Of a stretch of DNA of 64,000 nt, positions 4,529 to 61,029 are shown one piece after another; the first letter of the stretch is position 1, and each line of letters begins with the position of its first letter. The DNA comes from Alphaproteobacteria bacterium. GTDB lineage: Bacteria > Pseudomonadota > Alphaproteobacteria > JAAEOK01. Under the pieces are notes generated by a model, which worked only from the letters and a program-made list of their open reading frames with translations, ran no database searches and was not told where the DNA came from. A program made the position numbers and the translations under genes. The DNA is taken from NCBI GenBank assembly GCA_024244705.1, contig JAAEOK010000088.1, positions 1 to 64,000 on the forward strand. The letters run 5' to 3'.

Positions 4529-4763
4529 GAAAACCACTACCTTTCCGATATCGCAACGCACGCTAACGCATTGAGCCCCGTATCGCAAACGGGGATAATC
4601 TATTAAACTATTGAATTAAAACGATTATTTTATCCGGTTCCAGCTTGACCACTGGGCGACTTTGCCTTATGTAGGCCCTGCTTCGCCCGCCTGCAAGGGG
4701 CCGTCTCCAGGCGGCATGGCCAAGGGCCGGGTGATGCCGCCAATCGTGCCGTTTCGAGGACCG
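4529..4763. other. Intergenic region upstream of the YqeY-dnaG-rpoD block
   Basis: This 235-bp stretch lies between the YqeY start and the inverted-repeat element before carA. Bases 4591-4640 are clearly AT-richer than the surroundings, which suits a promoter for the minus-strand block, but I cannot pick out confident -35/-10 boxes. No gene is supported here. Confidence 0.5.
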
Positions 4764-5033
4764 AGAGCCTTATCCGATCATATGGAATCATTCTGCCGGA
4801 GGCCTTTTTCGCCGTGACCAGGAAACCGCCGCGGAGCGTATCCGGCATACGGTCAAGGCGGTTGACGCCGTCATGGCGAAAAAGGCCCCGGCCCGACAGG
4901 GTTGCGCTTGGGCGGGCGTCCGCGTCGTTGCTGCCCTCACCCGATGCTTCGGCATCGCGTTTCGGACGGCGCCTTGCGGCCTGGAACGCCCAAACCGCAA
5001 CAGAATTGATCCCGTATGATCCGATAAGGCTCT
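4764..5033. repeat. MITE-like element with imperfect terminal inverted repeats
   Basis: A 270-bp segment bounded by imperfect 32/33-bp terminal inverted repeats: 4764-4795 matches the reverse complement of 5001-5033 with three mismatches and one indel, both ends beginning AGAGCCTTATC. A second, nested inverted repeat (4801-4818 with 4870-4887, 17 of 18 matching) would fold into a long stem-loop. No transposase frame is present; short frames inside it look like nothing known. I see no convincing target-site duplication. The architecture fits a non-autonomous miniature element, but it could be another kind of dispersed palindromic repeat. It ends 8 bp before the carA ATG. Confidence 0.65.
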
Positions 5034-5041
5034 AGCCGCAT

Positions 5042-17057: not shown

Positions 17058-18545
17058 CTAAAATCGGGGGATATCGGGAAATGGAAGCTTGCCGCCGTGG
17101 ACGTGCATGCGACCCAACTCGGCGCATCTGTGGAGGGTCGGAAACATCTTACCCGGATTGAGCAAACCCTTCGGATCGAAGGCACACTTCACCCGCTGCT
17201 GCTGGTTCAGGTCGACTTCCGAGAACACTTCGCCCATCAGATCCCGCTTCTCCACCCCGACACCATGCTCCCCGGTCAGCGCGCCGCCGACCTCGACGCA
17301 GAGCCTGAGTATATCGGCGCCGAAATCCTCCGCCTTCTCGAGCTCGCCCGGCCGATTGGCGTCGTAAAGGATGAGGGGGTGAAGGTTTCCATCGCCGGCG
17401 TGGAAAACATTCGCGCAGCGAAGCCCGTAGTGGGCCGAGAGTTCGGTCATCCGCCTCAGCACTTCGGGCAAGCGGTGGCGCGGGATGGTCCCGTCCATGC
17501 AATAGTAATCTGGCGAAATACGGCCCATCGCCGGAAACGCGGCCTTGCGCCCGGCCCAGAAGGTCATGCGTTCTTCTTCGGAGTGGCTGATCCGCTTGGT
17601 CACCGCACCATTGTCGTCGGCAATCTTCGATACAGTTTCGACCAGGTGGTCGACCTCTGCCGCCGGCCCATCCAGCTCGACGATCAGGAGCGCCTCGACA
17701 TCCATCGGATAACCGGCGTGAATGAACTCCTCGGTGGCGTGAATCGCCAACTTGTCCATCAACTCCATGCCGCCCGGAATGATACCGGCACCGATGATCG
17801 CGGCGACGCAATCGCCGGCCTGCTCGTTGCTAGGAAATCCGAGCAGCGCTGCACACGCGGTCTCGGGTTTGCGGAGGATCCGCACGGTCACCTCGGTGAT
17901 CACACCGAGCAGACCCTCGGAGCCGGTGAGCAGGCCCATAAAGTCGTAACCCCCGGCGTCCAAATGCTTGCCGCCGATCCGGATCACTTCACCTTCGATG
18001 GTAACGAATTCGAGGCCGAGCAAATTATTGGTGGTTACGCCGTATTTGAGGCAGTGCACGCCGCCAGCGTTTTCACCGACATTGCCGCCGATCGAGCATG
18101 CGATTTGGCTCGAGGGGTCGGGCGCGAAATAGAAGCCGCGTTCGGCAACAGCATCGCTGATGGCCAGGTTGGTGACGCCCGGTTGAACCACAACGCAACG
18201 GTTTTCATAATCGATCTCGAGGACGCGGTTGAACTTGCCAAGGCCAAGCAGGACCGCGTCGGCGAGCGGCAGCGAACCGCCGGAGAGCGAGGTCCCGGCG
18301 CCGCGCGGCACGACCTTGATCCCCTCGCGGTGACAATAGGCCAGAATGCGCGCCACCTGATCGGTCGTTTCCGGCAGTGCGACGAGCAGCGGAACCGTCC
18401 GGTAGGCGGTCAGGCCGTCGGATTCGTAAGGCCGGCGCTCATCTTCCTCGACGATGATTCCTTCGCCGGTCACGATCTCGTTCAAATCGGCGGCGATTAT
18501 CCGGCGCCTGGCGATGACGTCCTGATCGGGATCGGGCATCTTCAT
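17058..18545 (-). CDS. glcD: Glycolate oxidase subunit GlcD (FAD-linked oxidase)
   Basis: Catalytic flavoprotein subunit of glycolate oxidase, 495 residues. FAD-binding motifs include VVPRGAGTSLSGGSLP, SIGGNVGENAGGVHCLKYG and the C-terminal HAGDGNLHPLILYD and LTGEHGVGVEKRD, ending FDPKGLLNPGKMFPT. It pairs with glcE (1-bp gap). Its first ~27 codons and upstream leader occur again, imperfectly, at 22049-22249, flanking the three-gene cassette just upstream. Its product glyoxylate could feed the reductases encoded near 44-45 kb. Confidence 0.94.
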   Translation of the reverse strand: MKMPDPDQDVIARRRIIAADLNEIVTGEGIIVEEDERRPYESDGLTAYRTVPLLVALPETTDQVARILAYCHREGIKVVPRGAGTSLSGGSLPLADAVLLGLGKFNRVLEIDYENRCVVVQPGVTNLAISDAVAERGFYFAPDPSSQIACSIGGNVGENAGGVHCLKYGVTTNNLLGLEFVTIEGEVIRIGGKHLDAGGYDFMGLLTGSEGLLGVITEVTVRILRKPETACAALLGFPSNEQAGDCVAAIIGAGIIPGGMELMDKLAIHATEEFIHAGYPMDVEALLIVELDGPAAEVDHLVETVSKIADDNGAVTKRISHSEEERMTFWAGRKAAFPAMGRISPDYYCMDGTIPRHRLPEVLRRMTELSAHYGLRCANVFHAGDGNLHPLILYDANRPGELEKAEDFGADILRLCVEVGGALTGEHGVGVEKRDLMGEVFSEVDLNQQQRVKCAFDPKGLLNPGKMFPTLHRCAELGRMHVHGGKLPFPDIPRF

Positions 18546-18667
18546 CGTCGAAGGCTCCCACGGCTAGCGAAGAAACGGCGCACCGATTTCGGCCGCCGGC
18601 CCTATGGTAAGCCGAATTGGCATCGAGGCAAGCGGCGCATAAGAAAAATCGTGCCATCGGGGCGCCA
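18465..18667. repeat. Direct repeat copy A (glcD 5' end and leader)
   Basis: This segment, covering the first glcD codons and the upstream leader, is repeated in the same orientation at 22049-22249 with about 85-90 % identity by eye. The outer end carries a degenerate version of the rpmJ terminator hairpin. The two copies bracket the CMD, ThDP-enzyme and SMP-30 genes. Confidence 0.85.
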
Positions 18668-18684
18668 CACCGTTCCCATGCGAC

Positions 18685-19251
18685 CTAACCCAGATCGGGC
18701 GGCTCGGGCAGGCCCTCTTCTAGCGGGATATCGAAGGCAAAGACCATGTAACTCATGATGCCGTAGAGGCCGCAAAGGGCGACCACCTCGACCACGCCCG
18801 CGACGCCGTGAACGGCGACGATACGTTGCTGGATGTCATCGGGGATCGATTGTTTGGCAACTACGGCGTCGACCGCTTGCAATATCGCCTGGGACGCGTC
18901 GGGCAAAACGTCAGGCACCTCGCCGGCAGTTAGTTCATCTATCACATCCTGGCTTATTCCAGCCAACTTCGCTGGACGCTGATGGTGCGACCATTCGTAA
19001 CCAGAAGCCTGTCTGGCTGCAAAACGCAAGATCACTAATTCGCGCACCGCGTCGGGCAGGGTTGCGTGGAAACGCAGATGTTCACCAAGTGCGCCAATCT
19101 TGGTCGCGACACCGGGATTGTTGAACATGCGGACGTAGACCTCGCCCAATTGGGCGCGACCTTCGGCGTGGGCGCGCGCGCGCGCCATGTGCTCGAAGGT
19201 CTTAAGGTCGCCGCCTTTCAGCGACTCAGTGGGATCGGGCAGCTTGGCCAT
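18685..19251 (-). CDS. Carboxymuconolactone decarboxylase (CMD) family protein
   Basis: A 188-residue all-helical CMD-family protein. The core is LRFHATLPDAVRELVILRFAARQASGYEWSHHQRPAKLAG, with the family's E-W-x-x-H pattern and no AhpD-type CxxC, so a peroxidase role is unlikely. Relatives act as gamma-carboxymuconolactone decarboxylases or have unknown functions. Its ATG overlaps the stop codon of the ThDP enzyme by one base (TGATG), so the two are translationally coupled. It is the last gene of the three-gene cassette between the direct repeats. Confidence 0.87.
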   Translation of the reverse strand: MAKLPDPTESLKGGDLKTFEHMARARAHAEGRAQLGEVYVRMFNNPGVATKIGALGEHLRFHATLPDAVRELVILRFAARQASGYEWSHHQRPAKLAGISQDVIDELTAGEVPDVLPDASQAILQAVDAVVAKQSIPDDIQQRIVAVHGVAGVVEVVALCGLYGIMSYMVFAFDIPLEEGLPEPPDLG

Positions 19252-20960
19252 CAGTCGCTATCCTCCCACTCCTTCTGGCGTTTGCGCCAGGCCCCTACGG
19301 GTGTCGGGTAGGTCTTGTCGGTATGCAGGTCCAATATATAGGGACCCTTGGCCTCGCGGGCGCGGCCGACCGCTGCCGCGATGCCATCGGGGGTGTCGAC
19401 GCGTTCGCCATCACCGCCCATCGATTTGGCGAAGCCAACCCAATCGATACCCGGTATGTCGGTCAGGTGCTCGGGTCCCGGCCCCATCTTCGATGCGCGG
19501 AAATAGATATTTCCATAGGACTGGTTGTTCATGACCGCGACTACCAACGGGATTTCTTCACGCGCGGCGGTATGGATTTCCATGCCGTGCATCAGCATGC
19601 AGCCGTCACCGGTAGCCACCATCAGTGGCAGCTCGGGCCGAGCGAGCTTGGCGCCAATGCCAAGCGGAATAGCGCCGCCCATCGGCCCCAAATTGGTCAG
19701 CGAGAAGTGTGTGTTTTCATCGCGGATATCCCAGTACTCGGCAAACCAGGCCCGATGTGCACCGGAATCGACACACAAGACGCCGTCATCGGGGAACGCG
19801 GCACGCAGCTCCGCGACGACGCGCGCCGGATGCATCGGCACAGCGTCACTCTTCATGTCTTCGCCGCAGTAGCGGCGCGGACCCGCAGACCGTATCTTCT
19901 TCAGGAACGCCAGACGGTCGTCGCGCCCAGCCTCTAGGGCGTCCGCTCCCTCCATGCTGACCAGACGTTTCAGCGCTTCATGGGCATTTCCGACCACAGG
20001 GACATCGCTTGGCCAGGTGCGCCCTATCAGCAACGGATCGGCCTCGATATGGATCATTGCCTTGGACGGCAGCATACGGGGGTCCCACTGCATCGTGTCG
20101 CGCTGCGATAGTCCGGAGCCGATGATGATAAGCACCTCGACTTCGTCGGAACAGATGGCATCGATTGCCCAACGCGACCCTCCATAGCCGAATACGCCCA
20201 ATGCAAGAGGATGATCGTCGGGAATCAGACCCTTGCCCGACAACGTCGTTGCCACGGGTATGTCGAACCGTTCGGCGAAACTGCGAAGGGTCTTGGCGCC
20301 CCCAGCATGTTGCACACCTGGCCCAGCCAGCACGATGATTTTTCGATGTTCGGCGCCTTTCATCTGATCGACAGCGTGACCAAGCGCCGCCTCGTCGAGG
20401 CTCCGGTTCGCCGCCAATGCCGCGCCGACCGGTTGCCAGTCATCATCGATCTCAGCCTTCTGCACATCGACCGGCACTGACAGATGCACCGGTATGCGGC
20501 GTGTCAATGCATGGGTAATCGCATGACGCAGGTGATGCGGTACGACCGCGTGCGACGACAACGACAGCGACAGTCCGGTTATGCGCTGCAGCGCGTCGAC
20601 GTCATCGAGCCCGGCGCCGGATGCATCCTGGAAGCCCCCCATGCCTTCCCAACTGCGTGCCACTTCGCCACTGATTGCAAGCACCGGGCTACGGTCGGCG
20701 CGCGCCGCCGCCAGCGCCGTTACCATGTTGAGTATACCGGGGCCCCCAATGCCAAGACACACGCCCAGCCCGCCCGAAGCCCGGGCATAGCCATCGGCCA
20801 TATAGGCGGCACCGCCTTCGAATGCGGCAACGACGGTTTTCACACCCTGGGTGCCGGTAAGCGGCGGCATGAAATTGTCGTTCAGGCCGCCGAGGTCGAC
20901 GAAACAATGGTCGACACCCTGGTCGTGCAGCGCCGACACGATGTACTCGGTCACCAACAT
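19251..20960 (-). CDS. Thiamine-diphosphate-dependent enzyme (acetolactate-synthase-like)
   Basis: A 569-residue enzyme with the three-domain fold of acetolactate synthase, benzoylformate decarboxylase and relatives. The N-terminal domain has the activating Glu in VVAAFEGGAAYMADGYAR. The central domain has VLAGPGVQHAGG. The C-terminal ThDP-binding motif is GDGCMLMHGMEIHTAAREE followed by NNQSYGN. The family cleaves or joins bonds next to 2-oxoacids; the substrate cannot be read from sequence. It is coupled to the CMD gene and lies 27 bp downstream of an SMP-30-type lactonase gene, suggesting a lactone or sugar-acid pathway. Confidence 0.9.
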   Translation of the reverse strand: MLVTEYIVSALHDQGVDHCFVDLGGLNDNFMPPLTGTQGVKTVVAAFEGGAAYMADGYARASGGLGVCLGIGGPGILNMVTALAAARADRSPVLAISGEVARSWEGMGGFQDASGAGLDDVDALQRITGLSLSLSSHAVVPHHLRHAITHALTRRIPVHLSVPVDVQKAEIDDDWQPVGAALAANRSLDEAALGHAVDQMKGAEHRKIIVLAGPGVQHAGGAKTLRSFAERFDIPVATTLSGKGLIPDDHPLALGVFGYGGSRWAIDAICSDEVEVLIIIGSGLSQRDTMQWDPRMLPSKAMIHIEADPLLIGRTWPSDVPVVGNAHEALKRLVSMEGADALEAGRDDRLAFLKKIRSAGPRRYCGEDMKSDAVPMHPARVVAELRAAFPDDGVLCVDSGAHRAWFAEYWDIRDENTHFSLTNLGPMGGAIPLGIGAKLARPELPLMVATGDGCMLMHGMEIHTAAREEIPLVVAVMNNQSYGNIYFRASKMGPGPEHLTDIPGIDWVGFAKSMGGDGERVDTPDGIAAAVGRAREAKGPYILDLHTDKTYPTPVGAWRKRQKEWEDSD

Positions 20961-20987
20961 CAGATCGCCTCCTTCGACGGAATCGTA

Positions 20988-21941
20988 TTAAGAAAAGGCG
21001 AGACGTCCGCCGGGCCGCGGCCAATCCACGGCGATCAGGTGCCCGGTTCCGGAACAGGTGATGTAGGCCGTGCCGTGATCGGGACCACCGAAACAGATAT
21101 TAGTGATCATCGGGTCAGGCAGCGCCAGGTTTTCAACAGTCCGACCATTCGGCGAAATCTGCACAATGCCACCATTAATCAACGTCGCCTGACATACCCA
21201 GCCGTCGCCATCGACTGCCATTGAATCAAACAGGGTGTAGCCGGGCGCACCGTAGAACAGCTTGCCTGGATGATAATCGCCGTCCGCGTTGGCGGCGATC
21301 TTGCCGGGGCCGTCTAATTCCCATGACCAGATTCGCCCGACTTGTGTCTCGGCGACGTAGAGGCGACTACCGTCCGGTGACAACGCAATGCCGTTCGGAC
21401 TATCGAGGGGAAAGATAGCCTCGGTGATGCTGGTGCCATCGGGCTGTGCATAGTAGACCGCCGTGCGGTCGCTCTCCCGCTCGGTGCGGATGCCGTGATC
21501 GGTAAACCAGAAGCCGCCGGTCTCATCGAAGATGATGTCGTTTGGACCCCTTAGCGGGTGCCCGTCGCACGCAGTGTAAATCTTTCTGACCTCGCCGGTG
21601 GCGAGATCGACCCGATCAATGCTGCCGCCCGAATAGCTCGGCGGCGCCACCAAACCAAATACCAACAGGTCCCCTTTTTTATAAAACGAAAAACTACCGC
21701 CGTTGTTGCAGACATAGGCTGCGCCGTCTGGTCCGATCGCCGCGCCGTTGGGTCCACCGCCCAGTTCAGCAATGCGTTCAATACGACCGTCCGGTGACAC
21801 CCGGACCAGCGTGCCGGCGGCGATTTCGGTCACTAATATAGATCCGTCCGCCATGGCAATCGGCCCTTCAGGAAAGGCTAAGCCAGTAGCAACGGTCCGA
21901 ATTGACGTAGATGTCGAGGTTACAGCGCCGTCAGAAGTCAT
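20988..21941 (-). CDS. SMP-30/gluconolactonase/LRE family protein
   Basis: A 317-residue six-bladed beta-propeller of the SMP-30/gluconolactonase family, metal-dependent lactonases that open sugar or other lactones. Typical segments are GLAFPEGPIAMADGSILVTEI, GGPNGAAIGPDGAAYVCNNGG, LRGPNDIIFDETGGFWFTDHG and SPNGIALSPDGSRLYVAET, which supply the Glu, Asn and Asp metal ligands. No signal peptide is visible. It is the first gene of the cassette, directly downstream of the glcD-leader duplicate. The true substrate is unknown. Confidence 0.88.
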   Translation of the reverse strand: MTSDGAVTSTSTSIRTVATGLAFPEGPIAMADGSILVTEIAAGTLVRVSPDGRIERIAELGGGPNGAAIGPDGAAYVCNNGGSFSFYKKGDLLVFGLVAPPSYSGGSIDRVDLATGEVRKIYTACDGHPLRGPNDIIFDETGGFWFTDHGIRTERESDRTAVYYAQPDGTSITEAIFPLDSPNGIALSPDGSRLYVAETQVGRIWSWELDGPGKIAANADGDYHPGKLFYGAPGYTLFDSMAVDGDGWVCQATLINGGIVQISPNGRTVENLALPDPMITNICFGGPDHGTAYITCSGTGHLIAVDWPRPGGRLAFS

Positions 21942-22129
21942 TGCATATTCCGGGCAATACCGGCATTGGCATGACCAACAACGCCGCTACGTCGAACTTC
22001 ACCCCTGGCATCCTTTTCGACGGTAACAATACCGGTAATCACCTGAGCGCCGGTCACGATCTCGTTCAAATCGGCGACGATCGCCTGGCGCCTAGCGATG
22101 ATGTCCTGATCGGGATCGGGCATCTTCAT
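21938..22129 (-). pseudogene. Truncated glcD 5' fragment
   Basis: A short frame of 63 codons whose first ~25 residues copy the GlcD N-terminus and whose remainder quickly loses similarity (a faint GIVTVEKDARG resembles GlcD GIIVEEDERR). It has no FAD-binding domain and cannot be functional glycolate oxidase. It marks the duplicated border of the three-gene cassette. Confidence 0.7.
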
Positions 22130-22249
22130 CGTCGAAGGCTCCCACGGCTAGCGAAGAAACGGCGCGCCGATTTCGGCCGCCGGCTCTATGGTAAGCCGAA
22201 TTGGTATCGAGGCAAGCTGCGGATAAAAAAATCGCGCCACCGGGGCGCG
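22049..22249. repeat. Direct repeat copy B (duplicate of glcD leader and first codons)
   Basis: Second copy of the 18465-18667 segment, in the same orientation. It includes an ATG at 22129 that would encode MKMPDPDQDIIARR followed by ADLNEIVTG, nearly identical to the GlcD N-terminus, and its outer end overlaps the intact rpmJ terminator. The homology fades just beyond the duplicated codons. Confidence 0.85.
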
Positions 22250-22251
22250 AT
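22224..22251 (-). terminator. Rho-independent terminator of rpmJ
   Basis: On the minus strand, ATCGCGCC and GGCGCGAT (plus coordinates 22231-22238 and 22244-22251) form a perfect 8-bp stem with a 5-base loop, followed by a run of T (A-tract at 22225-22231 on the plus strand). It lies 26 bp after the rpmJ stop. Confidence 0.88.
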
Positions 22252-22276: not shown

Positions 22277-22402
22277 TTATCCCTGACGCGCCTTGAAACG
22301 CGGGTTGCGCTTGTTGATGACATATACGCGACCATGACGGCGCACGACGCGGCAATTCTTGTCGCGCTTTTTCGCCGATTTGAGCGAATGTAAAACCTTC
22401 AT
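22277..22402 (-). CDS. rpmJ: 50S ribosomal protein L36
   Basis: A 41-residue ribosomal protein, bL36: [17 protein letters not shown], then [24 protein letters not shown]. This is the typical alphaproteobacterial stand-alone L36 form, which keeps only part of the zinc ligands (Cys-17 and His-23 are visible). The gene is monocistronic: a terminator follows immediately, and the upstream gene is separated by its own terminator. It is too short for most automatic ORF cutoffs but the match is unmistakable. Confidence 0.95.
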
Positions 22403-57654: not shown

Positions 57655-58505
57655 AGGTCCTCGCCTGCCAGATCGAAATCCCGGAGATCACCACGGCCGC
57701 GCAGCGATCGTCGTTTCTCGACGACACGATCGAGAAGATTTCCGCCAAACAGGCCCAGGAGCCAGCGGACCTCGTGGTGCTGCCGGAACTGTCGTCGATC
57801 GAATATTCGCGCCGCGCCTTCGACAATCTCGACCAGCTCTCAGAGGATCTGGACGGCCATTCGTTCGAAGTCTTCGGACGCGCTGCCCGCGAACTGAGTG
57901 TCGCCATCTGTTACGGCATACCGCGCATCGGAGACGAGGGCTTTCACATCTCGCAGGTCGTCGTCGATGCCAACGGCAGCCGGGTCGGCCATTTCGACAA
58001 GATGCATATCGCTCATTACGGAGCGTCCCCGGAAAAGGATTATTTCACGCGCGGGCGGCATGTCTTCCTGTTCGAGATCGCCGGCATCCGGATGGCGCCG
58101 ATCATCTGCTACGACATTCGCATCCCGGAACTCGCGCGCATGCTGTGCGTCGATTACGGCGTCGAGCTGATCCTCCATTGCGGCGCCTATTTCGTCGACC
58201 GGTCCTATTACAGCTGGCGCCATTTCGTCGTCACCCGGGCATTGGAAAACCAAGCCTACATGCTCAGCCTCAACCGGGCCGGCGACGATTACGGCTCGTC
58301 GATCTTCTGCCCGCCTTGGGTCGACGAGACGGCGCCGGAAATCATGCTGCCCAAAGAAGAGACCTTCGCGAGTTTCGAGATCGACCGGGCCCGGATCGTC
58401 GAGGCGCGAAAGACCTACTCCTTTCTCGAAGACCGCCTGCCCGACTACCGTCGGCTCGACGTGCGCGACGGCAGGTCGGCCGCCACCAAGCCGGACACCG
58501 ATTAG
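57651..58505 (+). CDS. Carbon-nitrogen hydrolase (nitrilase superfamily)
   Basis: A 284-residue nitrilase-superfamily enzyme. The catalytic Glu is in DLVVLPELSSIEYS, the Lys in GHFDKMHIAHYG and the Cys in APIICYDIRIPELARML. The sequence is closest in style to amidases of this superfamily; the substrate is unknown. It overlaps the cyclophilin-like gene. Its C-terminal YRRLDVRDGRS segment is echoed by a fragment at 59699-59799. Confidence 0.9.
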   Translation: MKVLACQIEIPEITTAAQRSSFLDDTIEKISAKQAQEPADLVVLPELSSIEYSRRAFDNLDQLSEDLDGHSFEVFGRAARELSVAICYGIPRIGDEGFHISQVVVDANGSRVGHFDKMHIAHYGASPEKDYFTRGRHVFLFEIAGIRMAPIICYDIRIPELARMLCVDYGVELILHCGAYFVDRSYYSWRHFVVTRALENQAYMLSLNRAGDDYGSSIFCPPWVDETAPEIMLPKEETFASFEIDRARIVEARKTYSFLEDRLPDYRRLDVRDGRSAATKPDTD

Positions 58506-58631
58506 CCTGCCGTATTTGTTGGAGCGGCAGTGTCAGAAAATGACCGCCGTCTCCAGCGCCGCGCCTATCTTATCGACCGCTCCCATTACACTCGATTTCC
58601 CAGGTGGGTCCGACACCGCGCGGCGCGTCGT

Positions 58632-59516: not shown

Positions 59517-59826
59517 CGTAGTGGCCCGCCGAGGTGAGACGAGAATCGACCCGGATCCCCGATGTGAAACCGACCTCCGCAGGACAGCATGCCCCGATCT
59601 TGTCCAGGGAGACAATCCGCTTGCCGCCGACGGTCGGCGGTGACGTTGACCCGGTACGACGAAAACCGTCTGGCCGGCCCGTGCAGCAACCGGGACCATG
59701 CGTCCGAAGCAACGCGATGAAAATCCTCGCCGGCTTGACTACCGGCGGCTCGACGTGTTCGACGGCCGGTCGGCGCCGGCGAAACGGAGCGCGGATTGAT
59801 CCGTTCGATTTGTTAGCCAGGCAAGT
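59517..59826. other. Gap between the GT8 and M24 genes
   Basis: A 310-bp stretch containing the GT8 leader and, at 59699-59799 on the plus strand, a fragment resembling the nitrilase 3' end. No intact gene is supported. Confidence 0.5.
59699..59799 (+). pseudogene. Remnant of a nitrilase-superfamily gene 3' end
   Basis: In frame with a TGA at 59797, this fragment would encode ...LDYRRLDVFDGRSAPAKRSAD. It matches the C-terminal ...PDYRRLDVRDGRSAATKPDTD of the nitrilase ending at 58505 at about 13 of 20 positions, and the nucleotide similarity is visible around GACTACCGNCGGCTCGACGTG. No upstream catalytic region exists. It is most simply a decayed paralogue or partial duplicate. Confidence 0.6.
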
Positions 59827-61029
59827 TCACGAAATGACCGCCATCTCCGGCGCGGCGCGAACGGACAGCAACTCCGCGTCGCCGTCCGTGACGACGATGT
59901 TCTCCTCGTGCACCATCATCTTGCCGGGGGCGAATTCCATCCCCGGCTCGATGGTCAGCACCATGCCCGGCACCAGGGGCGTGTCGTCGCCGGGCCGGTT
60001 GGACGGCCATTCGGTCAGCTGTAGTCCGAGGCCGTGACCGAGGCGGCCGACATTGTTTCCAAGCGCGCCGCCGGCCTCGAGAACCGAGTTCATCGCCGCC
60101 CACAAGTCGCTTGTGGTCGCGCCGGGCCGCGCCGCGGCGATACCGGCGTCGGTGGCGCGATAGACCACGTCGTGGGCGCGCCGTGCCGCATCGTCGACCG
60201 CGCCGAACGCGAAGTTGCGGTCGAAATCGCAGTAGTAGCCGTCGAACGTGGTGCCGGTGTCGATGATCAGCACATCGCCGGCCATAATTCGGCGGTCGGT
60301 CGGTCCCATGATGATGTTGTCATAGCCGCCGGGGCCGGACACGCCCATCAAGTAGGGCGAGGTATCGGCGCCCCGTTCGAGCAGGTCGATGCGCATCTTG
60401 CGGCATGCGGCGCGTTCGCTGTCGCCGATCTCGAGGGACGTTTCCAGCGCCGTGAACGATTCCGATGCGAGCCGGCAGATATGGCGGACCTTGTCGATCT
60501 CGGCGGGCGATTTGACGCCGCGCAGCGCTCGCATGATCGCCGTCGCGTTGACCACCTCGATCGGGCGGAGCGCGTCGCGAAGACGGCCAAAGTCGTCCGG
60601 CGGCATACGCAAATGCGATTCGGGTCCCAACGTCGCGCCGATCCGGCCATAGCGGTTGCCGACCTCGGCGAGTGCCGCACCGAGCAATGAGATACCGTCA
60701 TCCTCCGGCCGCGGCGCCGGCCAGGTGCGAATATCGTCGATACCGGCAATCTCCATTCCGCGTGCGCCGATCTCGGGGATGACCGCGATCGGCGCCGCAT
60801 TGGCCGGGATAACTACGAACCATGGCCGCGTCGGACTGGCCCAAAACTGGGTGTCGAAGCCGGTGAAATAGCGGACATTGGGCTCGGTGGTTACGAACAA
60901 CGCATCGATCTCGGCCTCGCGCATCAGGCGACTGGCGCGGGTTAGACGGGATTCGAACTCCGATGGCGAAAATCCGCGCGGGGGCCCCACATCCGAGGAC
61001 GCATCATCCGAGTTAGTCATGTGCTCCAC
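59827..61029 (-). CDS. M24-family Xaa-Pro aminopeptidase-like protein
   Basis: A 400-residue creatinase/prolidase-fold protein. The N-terminal domain has EIDALFVTTEPNVRYFTGFDTQFW. The metal ligands are visible in LIIDTGTTFDGYYCDFDRNF (Asp, Asp), GRLGHGLGLQLTEWP (His), LTIEPGMEF (Glu) and VHEENIVVT (Glu). It probably cleaves Xaa-Pro bonds or a small amide. It is divergent from the polyamine-type ABC importer, suggesting that it processes the imported compound. A few in-frame Met starts near 61020-61029 are equally possible. Confidence 0.9.
   Translation of the reverse strand: MEHMTNSDDASSDVGPPRGFSPSEFESRLTRASRLMREAEIDALFVTTEPNVRYFTGFDTQFWASPTRPWFVVIPANAAPIAVIPEIGARGMEIAGIDDIRTWPAPRPEDDGISLLGAALAEVGNRYGRIGATLGPESHLRMPPDDFGRLRDALRPIEVVNATAIMRALRGVKSPAEIDKVRHICRLASESFTALETSLEIGDSERAACRKMRIDLLERGADTSPYLMGVSGPGGYDNIIMGPTDRRIMAGDVLIIDTGTTFDGYYCDFDRNFAFGAVDDAARRAHDVVYRATDAGIAAARPGATTSDLWAAMNSVLEAGGALGNNVGRLGHGLGLQLTEWPSNRPGDDTPLVPGMVLTIEPGMEFAPGKMMVHEENIVVTDGDAELLSVRAAPEMAVIS

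Follow-up and report, generated by a model that had tools for sequence, protein, structure and literature searches.

Organization of the rpmJ-glcD locus

The window, a stretch of 64,000 nucleotides from the start of contig JAAEOK010000088.1 of an alphaproteobacterial draft genome (GCA_024244705.1), contains a cassette of three enzyme genes situated between rpmJ and glcD and bracketed by two direct copies of a sequence of ~200 bp. Read along the minus strand, the locus comprises, in sequence, rpmJ, a hairpin, repeat copy B, a 106-bp stretch, the genes for an SMP-30/gluconolactonase-like (SMP-30) protein, a thiamine diphosphate (ThDP)-dependent enzyme and a carboxymuconolactone decarboxylase (CMD) family protein, 19 bp, repeat copy A, glcD and glcE. 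The name rpmJ is presumed from the sequence of the gene, and the gene following glcD is taken to be glcE because of where it lies and because it resembles the post-glcD gene of relatives. The identities of the three cassette genes had been proposed in a preliminary description of this DNA and were borne out by matches to Pfam families (Table 1). The evidence presented below indicates that this metabolic cassette probably entered an ancestral rpmJ-glcD junction, with ~200 bp of the target border becoming duplicated as direct repeats on its two sides.

Direct repeats flanking the cassette

Comparison of the window with itself aligned copies A and B in direct orientation over 202 gapped columns with 92.6% identity, and at an E value of 1.9e-79 chance similarity was rejected. 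The homology begins at GCGCCCC, within the hairpin that follows rpmJ, and ends at codon 27 of glcD, so that the start and leader of glcD occur on both sides of the cassette, as initially described. A repeat limited to the coding start was rejected, as 120 of the 202 columns lie outside the glcD coding sequence. Differences between the copies were present in 15 columns (7 of 82 coding and 8 of 120 noncoding); those in the coding part fall in five codons and alter the amino acid in four. The truncated glcD start reported beside the lactonase gene was located in copy B, 106 bp before the SMP-30 gene. When the whole genome (4.5 Mb) was searched, the repeat matched only these two places, and a dispersed repeat element was, therefore, rejected. 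No structured RNA was apparent in the repeat, the window being without an Rfam match. Apart from copies A and B, the self-comparison yielded a single repeat, a direct pair at 58434-58564 and 59728-59858 (133 columns, 74% identity).

Part of an rpmJ terminator had also been assigned to the repeat. The 3′ part of the hairpin is indeed contained in both copies, but "terminator" describes its appearance, since the hairpin was not listed by a terminator scan and folded little better than shuffled sequences (z of -1.0).

The genome is a draft of 127 contigs with an estimated contamination of 4.4%, which leaves some room for an artefact of assembly or binning. However, the longest exact run common to copies A and B is 63 bp, whereas several contig ends, in the part of the assembly examined, overlap exactly by 135 to 140 bp. 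We infer from these overlaps an assembler with a word of ~141; as such a graph word is longer than any exact run common to the copies, misassembly was rejected, and an artefact appears highly improbable.

Table 1. Positions of genes and other features at the rpmJ-glcD locus of the window
Feature	Position	Strand	Size, content and matches
glcD-like FAD-linked oxidase, intact	17058-18545	minus	495 aa; PF01565, PF02913
Repeat copy A	18464-18665	minus	adjoins intact glcD; 3′ part of rpmJ-type hairpin, glcD leader, glcD codons 1-27
Inserted DNA between copies A and B	18666-22047		3,382 bp
CMD family protein	18685-19251	minus	188 aa; PF02627 (E 9e-7)
ThDP-dependent enzyme, acetolactate-synthase-like superfamily	19251-20960	minus	569 aa; PF02776, PF00205, PF02775
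SMP-30/gluconolactonase-like (SMP-30/SGL) beta-propeller protein	20988-21941	minus	317 aa; PF08450 (E 4e-47)
63-aa open frame	21938-22129	minus	27 glcD codons and 36 codons running into the insert; TGA overlaps SMP-30 ATG as ATGA
Stretch between truncated glcD start and SMP-30 gene	21942-22047	minus	106 bp; 52.8% G+C
Repeat copy B	22048-22248	minus	adjoins rpmJ; complete hairpin, leader, truncated glcD start (same segment as copy A)
Hairpin followed by T run, after rpmJ	22224-22251	minus	complete in copy B; 5′ arm cut in copy A
rpmJ (ribosomal protein L36)	22277-22402	minus	41 aa; orthologues in relatives

The rpmJ-glcD junction in relatives

The glcD gene was sought in 58 genomes, including the one under study, and a long orthologous locus with 58 to 77% identity was obtained from 23 others. 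One locus (L026) was without the glcD start and was left out; 22 relatives with a readable upstream region remained. A same-strand rpmJ was present upstream of glcD in 14 of these 22 class relatives, at a distance of 75 to 264 bp in 13 and of 839 bp in one. None of the 22 had a cassette gene near glcD in the stretch examined (roughly 1.5 kb upstream), and the situation in which all relatives carry the cassette together with the duplicate was, therefore, not seen. A further genome, G058, had rpmJ 161 bp before glcD with no cassette between them and contained two ThDP-CMD loci elsewhere; G059, with a single ThDP-CMD locus, showed no rpmJ ahead of glcD. Removal of the insert and one repeat from the locus in the window results in an rpmJ-glcD gap of 147 bp, which falls among the distances measured in relatives. 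Together with the junctions that lack the cassette, this restored gap indicated that the junction is old and the cassette new to it, in agreement with the initial proposal that rpmJ once stood directly before glcD.

Distribution of the cassette genes

Orthologues of the ThDP enzyme at an E value of ≤1e-120 were detected in 1 of 385 genomes of the class, that one being the genome under study, and in none of the 384 others, in a search that scored only a few of the best candidates per genome. A scan of named genomes identified eight ThDP loci with 49 to 82% identity from seven records, labelled Alphaproteobacteria, Rhizobiaceae, Deltaproteobacteria, Phycisphaerales, Mycobacterium, Desulfomonile and Actinomycetota; all seven are metagenome bins, and hence these labels may err. 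The CMD gene directly followed the ThDP gene in seven of the eight loci, the contig of the eighth stopping inside the ThDP gene, and the gene neighbourhoods of the pair differed among loci. In one locus (L063:279-398), a remnant comprising the last 40 codons of an SMP-30 gene (E of 2e-5) lies just before the ThDP-CMD pair and right after the end of another gene, indicating that the trio existed elsewhere. SMP-30 itself is widespread, with a match at an E value of ≤1e-90 in 68 of the 385 genomes, including the genome under study, and 60% identity in the nearest other. Among seven ThDP-CMD loci checked for direct repeats, only L068 had a pair, of 42 bp and 81% identity, which may be a hairpin because it also matches inverted. 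The cassette-free junctions, the presence of the ThDP-CMD pair at unrelated sites and the failure to find this pair in the 384 other sampled genomes of the class indicated that the cassette is the newcomer.

The predicted enzymes and the 63-aa frame

As judged from the families of its enzymes, the cassette suggests a small catabolic module, in which one enzyme would open a lactone, another would act on the C-C bonds of a 2-oxo acid or aldehyde, and the third would be a decarboxylase-type protein. The top PDB sequence matches of the ThDP enzyme were BbmA entries (269 bits), and none of the 25 NCBIfam matches listed for this enzyme reached its cut-off. The top PDB match of the SMP-30 protein was 8djf, named gluconolactonase (329 bits). 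The best NCBIfam match of the glcD product was GlcD, under the curated cut-off.

The open frame of 63 aa that starts with the truncated glcD start has no Pfam or NCBIfam match. Its ATGA overlap with the SMP-30 gene would allow coupled translation of the two. A regulatory role for this frame is a guess, as it has no known relative, a second frame of the 106-bp tail is likewise open, and a promoter scan found no promoter-like site in the region (shuffled sequences averaged 1.7).

Origin of the duplication

The duplication, the cassette-free junction in relatives and the patchy distribution of the ThDP-CMD pair were all observed directly, and from them we infer a single insertion event of the kind termed insertion with long target duplication. 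The preliminary description had proposed entry of the cassette with duplication of the border. The anatomy of the locus and the empty junctions support the entry, but placing the duplication in the same event goes beyond them, and a tandem duplication may have come first. As initially noted, there is no visible transposase; a Pfam search detected neither transposase nor integrase among the inserted genes, which consist of the three enzyme genes only, and the integrase expected of an integrase-type genomic island at a gene end is, thus, missing from the insert.

Circle integration, a template switch and entry into a pre-existing tandem duplication are candidate ways in which the DNA may have joined. 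In our view, the incoming DNA most likely carried a linked copy of the glcD 5′ end. Such DNA would recombine at the junction, for example, as a circle integrating by one crossover. After integration, glcD would stay intact behind its full leader and the cassette would sit behind a second one, as the duplicated piece contains both the glcD start and the leader. The leader in copy B would then presumably drive the cassette.

Several observations weigh against the entry of a foreign cassette with duplication of its target. Copies A and B are 7% apart, indicating that the event is not recent or that the incoming copy was already different, and the residues that relatives carry at the four altered positions do not tell which copy is older. 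No rpmJ was present within roughly 1.5 kb before glcD in 8 of the 22 relatives. The empty site is known at class distance only, where the leader is not alignable and mainly the coding parts match; the order is represented by this genome alone, and hence the comparison contains no near relative. On the donor side, the 106-bp tail had no meaningful match in the same genome (best E of 0.07) or in the SMP-30 relatives fetched. Composition hardly separates the cassette from the rest of the genome. Codon usage, which had been put forward as a check, was within the normal range and mildly atypical, with codon-score percentiles among 1,063 long open reading frames of 5.8 for SMP-30, 11.8 for CMD and 25 for ThDP; it was of little help and did not contradict a foreign origin. 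The corresponding percentiles for G+C content at third codon positions were 10, 20 and 29.

Equal-length target duplications of ~200 bp could, by reasoning, also arise without homology in the incoming DNA if a break with ends offset by ~200 nt was filled in and foreign DNA was captured between the ends by end joining. A search for the Ku family (PF02735) gave no match in this genome, while a control search was positive in Bacillus subtilis. Ku-dependent end joining was, thus, not indicated and an end joining free of Ku would be needed, making repair of a staggered break very unlikely as the source of the repeats.

Similar brackets and dispersed elements in the genome

A repeat census was performed by comparing each contig with itself for 33 contigs (2,216,036 bases, 49% of the genome), and several genes were found with a piece repeated beyond other genes. 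A flavin-reductase gene (PF01613) on contig C1 has its leader and start duplicated beyond a Fic gene (86% identity) and its end duplicated beyond a methyltransferase gene (97.5% identity). In this region (C1:133293-137085, L187), flavin-reductase fragments are thus present on both sides, beyond two different newcomers, with the start copy upstream of the Fic gene and the end copy downstream of the methyltransferase gene. On C33, the end of an arylmalonate-decarboxylase-like gene has a copy at a distance of 10 kb (89%); on C9, an internal segment of an M20 peptidase gene recurs beyond enoyl-CoA hydratase and AMP-binding genes (96%); and on C36, copies of a short-chain dehydrogenase gene flank a cyclase-domain gene (94%).

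Pairs of at least 100 bp and at least 85% identity separated by <15 kb numbered eight direct and no inverted in the 2.22 Mb covered, two of the eight being due to the C36 cluster. With the same thresholds, the control, pSymB of Sinorhizobium meliloti (1.00 Mb), had four direct and no inverted pairs; this is a thin control, being a single replicon of another family. Raising the thresholds to at least 150 bp and 88% left six pairs here and none in pSymB, numbers too few to weigh. As the density of repeats was similar in pSymB, an unusual abundance of such brackets in this genome, or a special habit of forming them, was not supported.

The exclusively direct orientation of short-distance repeats in both the genome and the control replicon is what a background of tandem duplication would give, and at the locus in the window the glcD 5′ end may have been duplicated in tandem first, with the cassette later entering between the copies or into the first of them. 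This order requires two events and entry exactly at the border between the copies, or subsequent trimming: copy B ends at codon 27 straight against insert DNA, while copy A starts 19 bp past the CMD stop. A tandem duplication preceding the cassette was, therefore, considered unlikely.

These loci also raise a broader possibility, namely that bacteria of this lineage repeatedly acquire foreign genes, and not selfish ones alone, by a general route of recombination at gene ends that are duplicated. The glcD, flavin-reductase (twice) and arylmalonate-decarboxylase-like loci would be its products, with the native gene intact and a fragment beyond the newcomer; the duplicated leader would serve as a ready promoter, at glcD with the ATGA-coupled leader frame of 63 aa, and the flanking repeats would allow scarless exit. 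We regard such a general route as doubtful.

Two dispersed families were also noted. A copy of an element of ~270 bp is located at 4763-5034 of the window. It contains no obvious gene, has terminal inverted repeats (TAGAGC...CAATTCTG / CAGAATG...GCTCTA) and apparent TA flanks, and resembles a miniature inverted-repeat transposable element. Further copies were present on C36, C112, C1 (two), C53 and C20, with a related group on C42, C73, C5 and C33, within the 49% of the genome covered. The second family, of ~116 bp, has a copy at C73:130057-130172 (L088) and others on C42, C33, C112, C75, C80 and C18. Two strong hairpins were apparent by eye, and the L088 copy was without an Rfam match.

Relation to known systems

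Two Helicobacter pylori genomes gave rise in 2000 to the proposal of insertion with long target duplication, frequently involving restriction-modification genes (Nobusato et al. 2000, Gene 259:99, as cited in PMC1643837, PMC2869330, PMC3031569 and PMC3154945). According to these citing accounts, the likeness consists of foreign genes situated between direct target repeats far longer than the duplications made by transposons and recognized against an empty site, here a putative one. The system as cited there was seen by comparing strain with strain and often involved restriction-modification genes, whereas here the payload is a metabolic trio, the empty site is at class distance and the copies are 7% apart. 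On anatomy, the locus belongs to this class: long direct target repeats are present at both ends of the insert, and no transposase or integrase is present within it. The rpmJ-glcD junction without a cassette, seen in 14 of the 22 relatives described above, may correspond to the empty site, at a distance at which the leader is not alignable; the comparison was made among genomes of the class, the order consisting of one genome.

In Arabidopsis (Woodhouse et al. 2010, PMC2869330), transposed genes had direct repeats on both sides, tens to hundreds of base pairs in length and mostly pieces of genes present in the empty site and often single in the orthologous empty site, and recombining circles were favoured as the mechanism. 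That system is one of plants, and in part of the cases a parental copy is present in the same genome. Tandem duplications driven by transformation have been described (Johnston et al. 2013, PMC3784515). Homology-facilitated illegitimate recombination has been applied to gene arrays (PMC5361080); in it, foreign DNA is attached to a conserved gene through a single homologous anchor, and orphan pieces may remain (PMC3240628, PMC5361080). As described in the portions of these two sources considered, this process displaces or replaces DNA, and a direct target duplication is not given there as its mark. By analogy, the glcD locus would work like insertion with long target duplication and the Arabidopsis circles, a pattern that is already named and has precedents.

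What is new here is the payload, together with the conserved target at rpmJ-glcD and the sister cases elsewhere in this genome, at which closer relatives could reveal the order of events. The locus provides a clear record, at a single site, of how a small metabolic module can be added at a conserved housekeeping junction while the native gene stays whole and no mobile-element gene is seen, and it extends to ordinary enzymes a pattern known mainly from restriction-modification genes.

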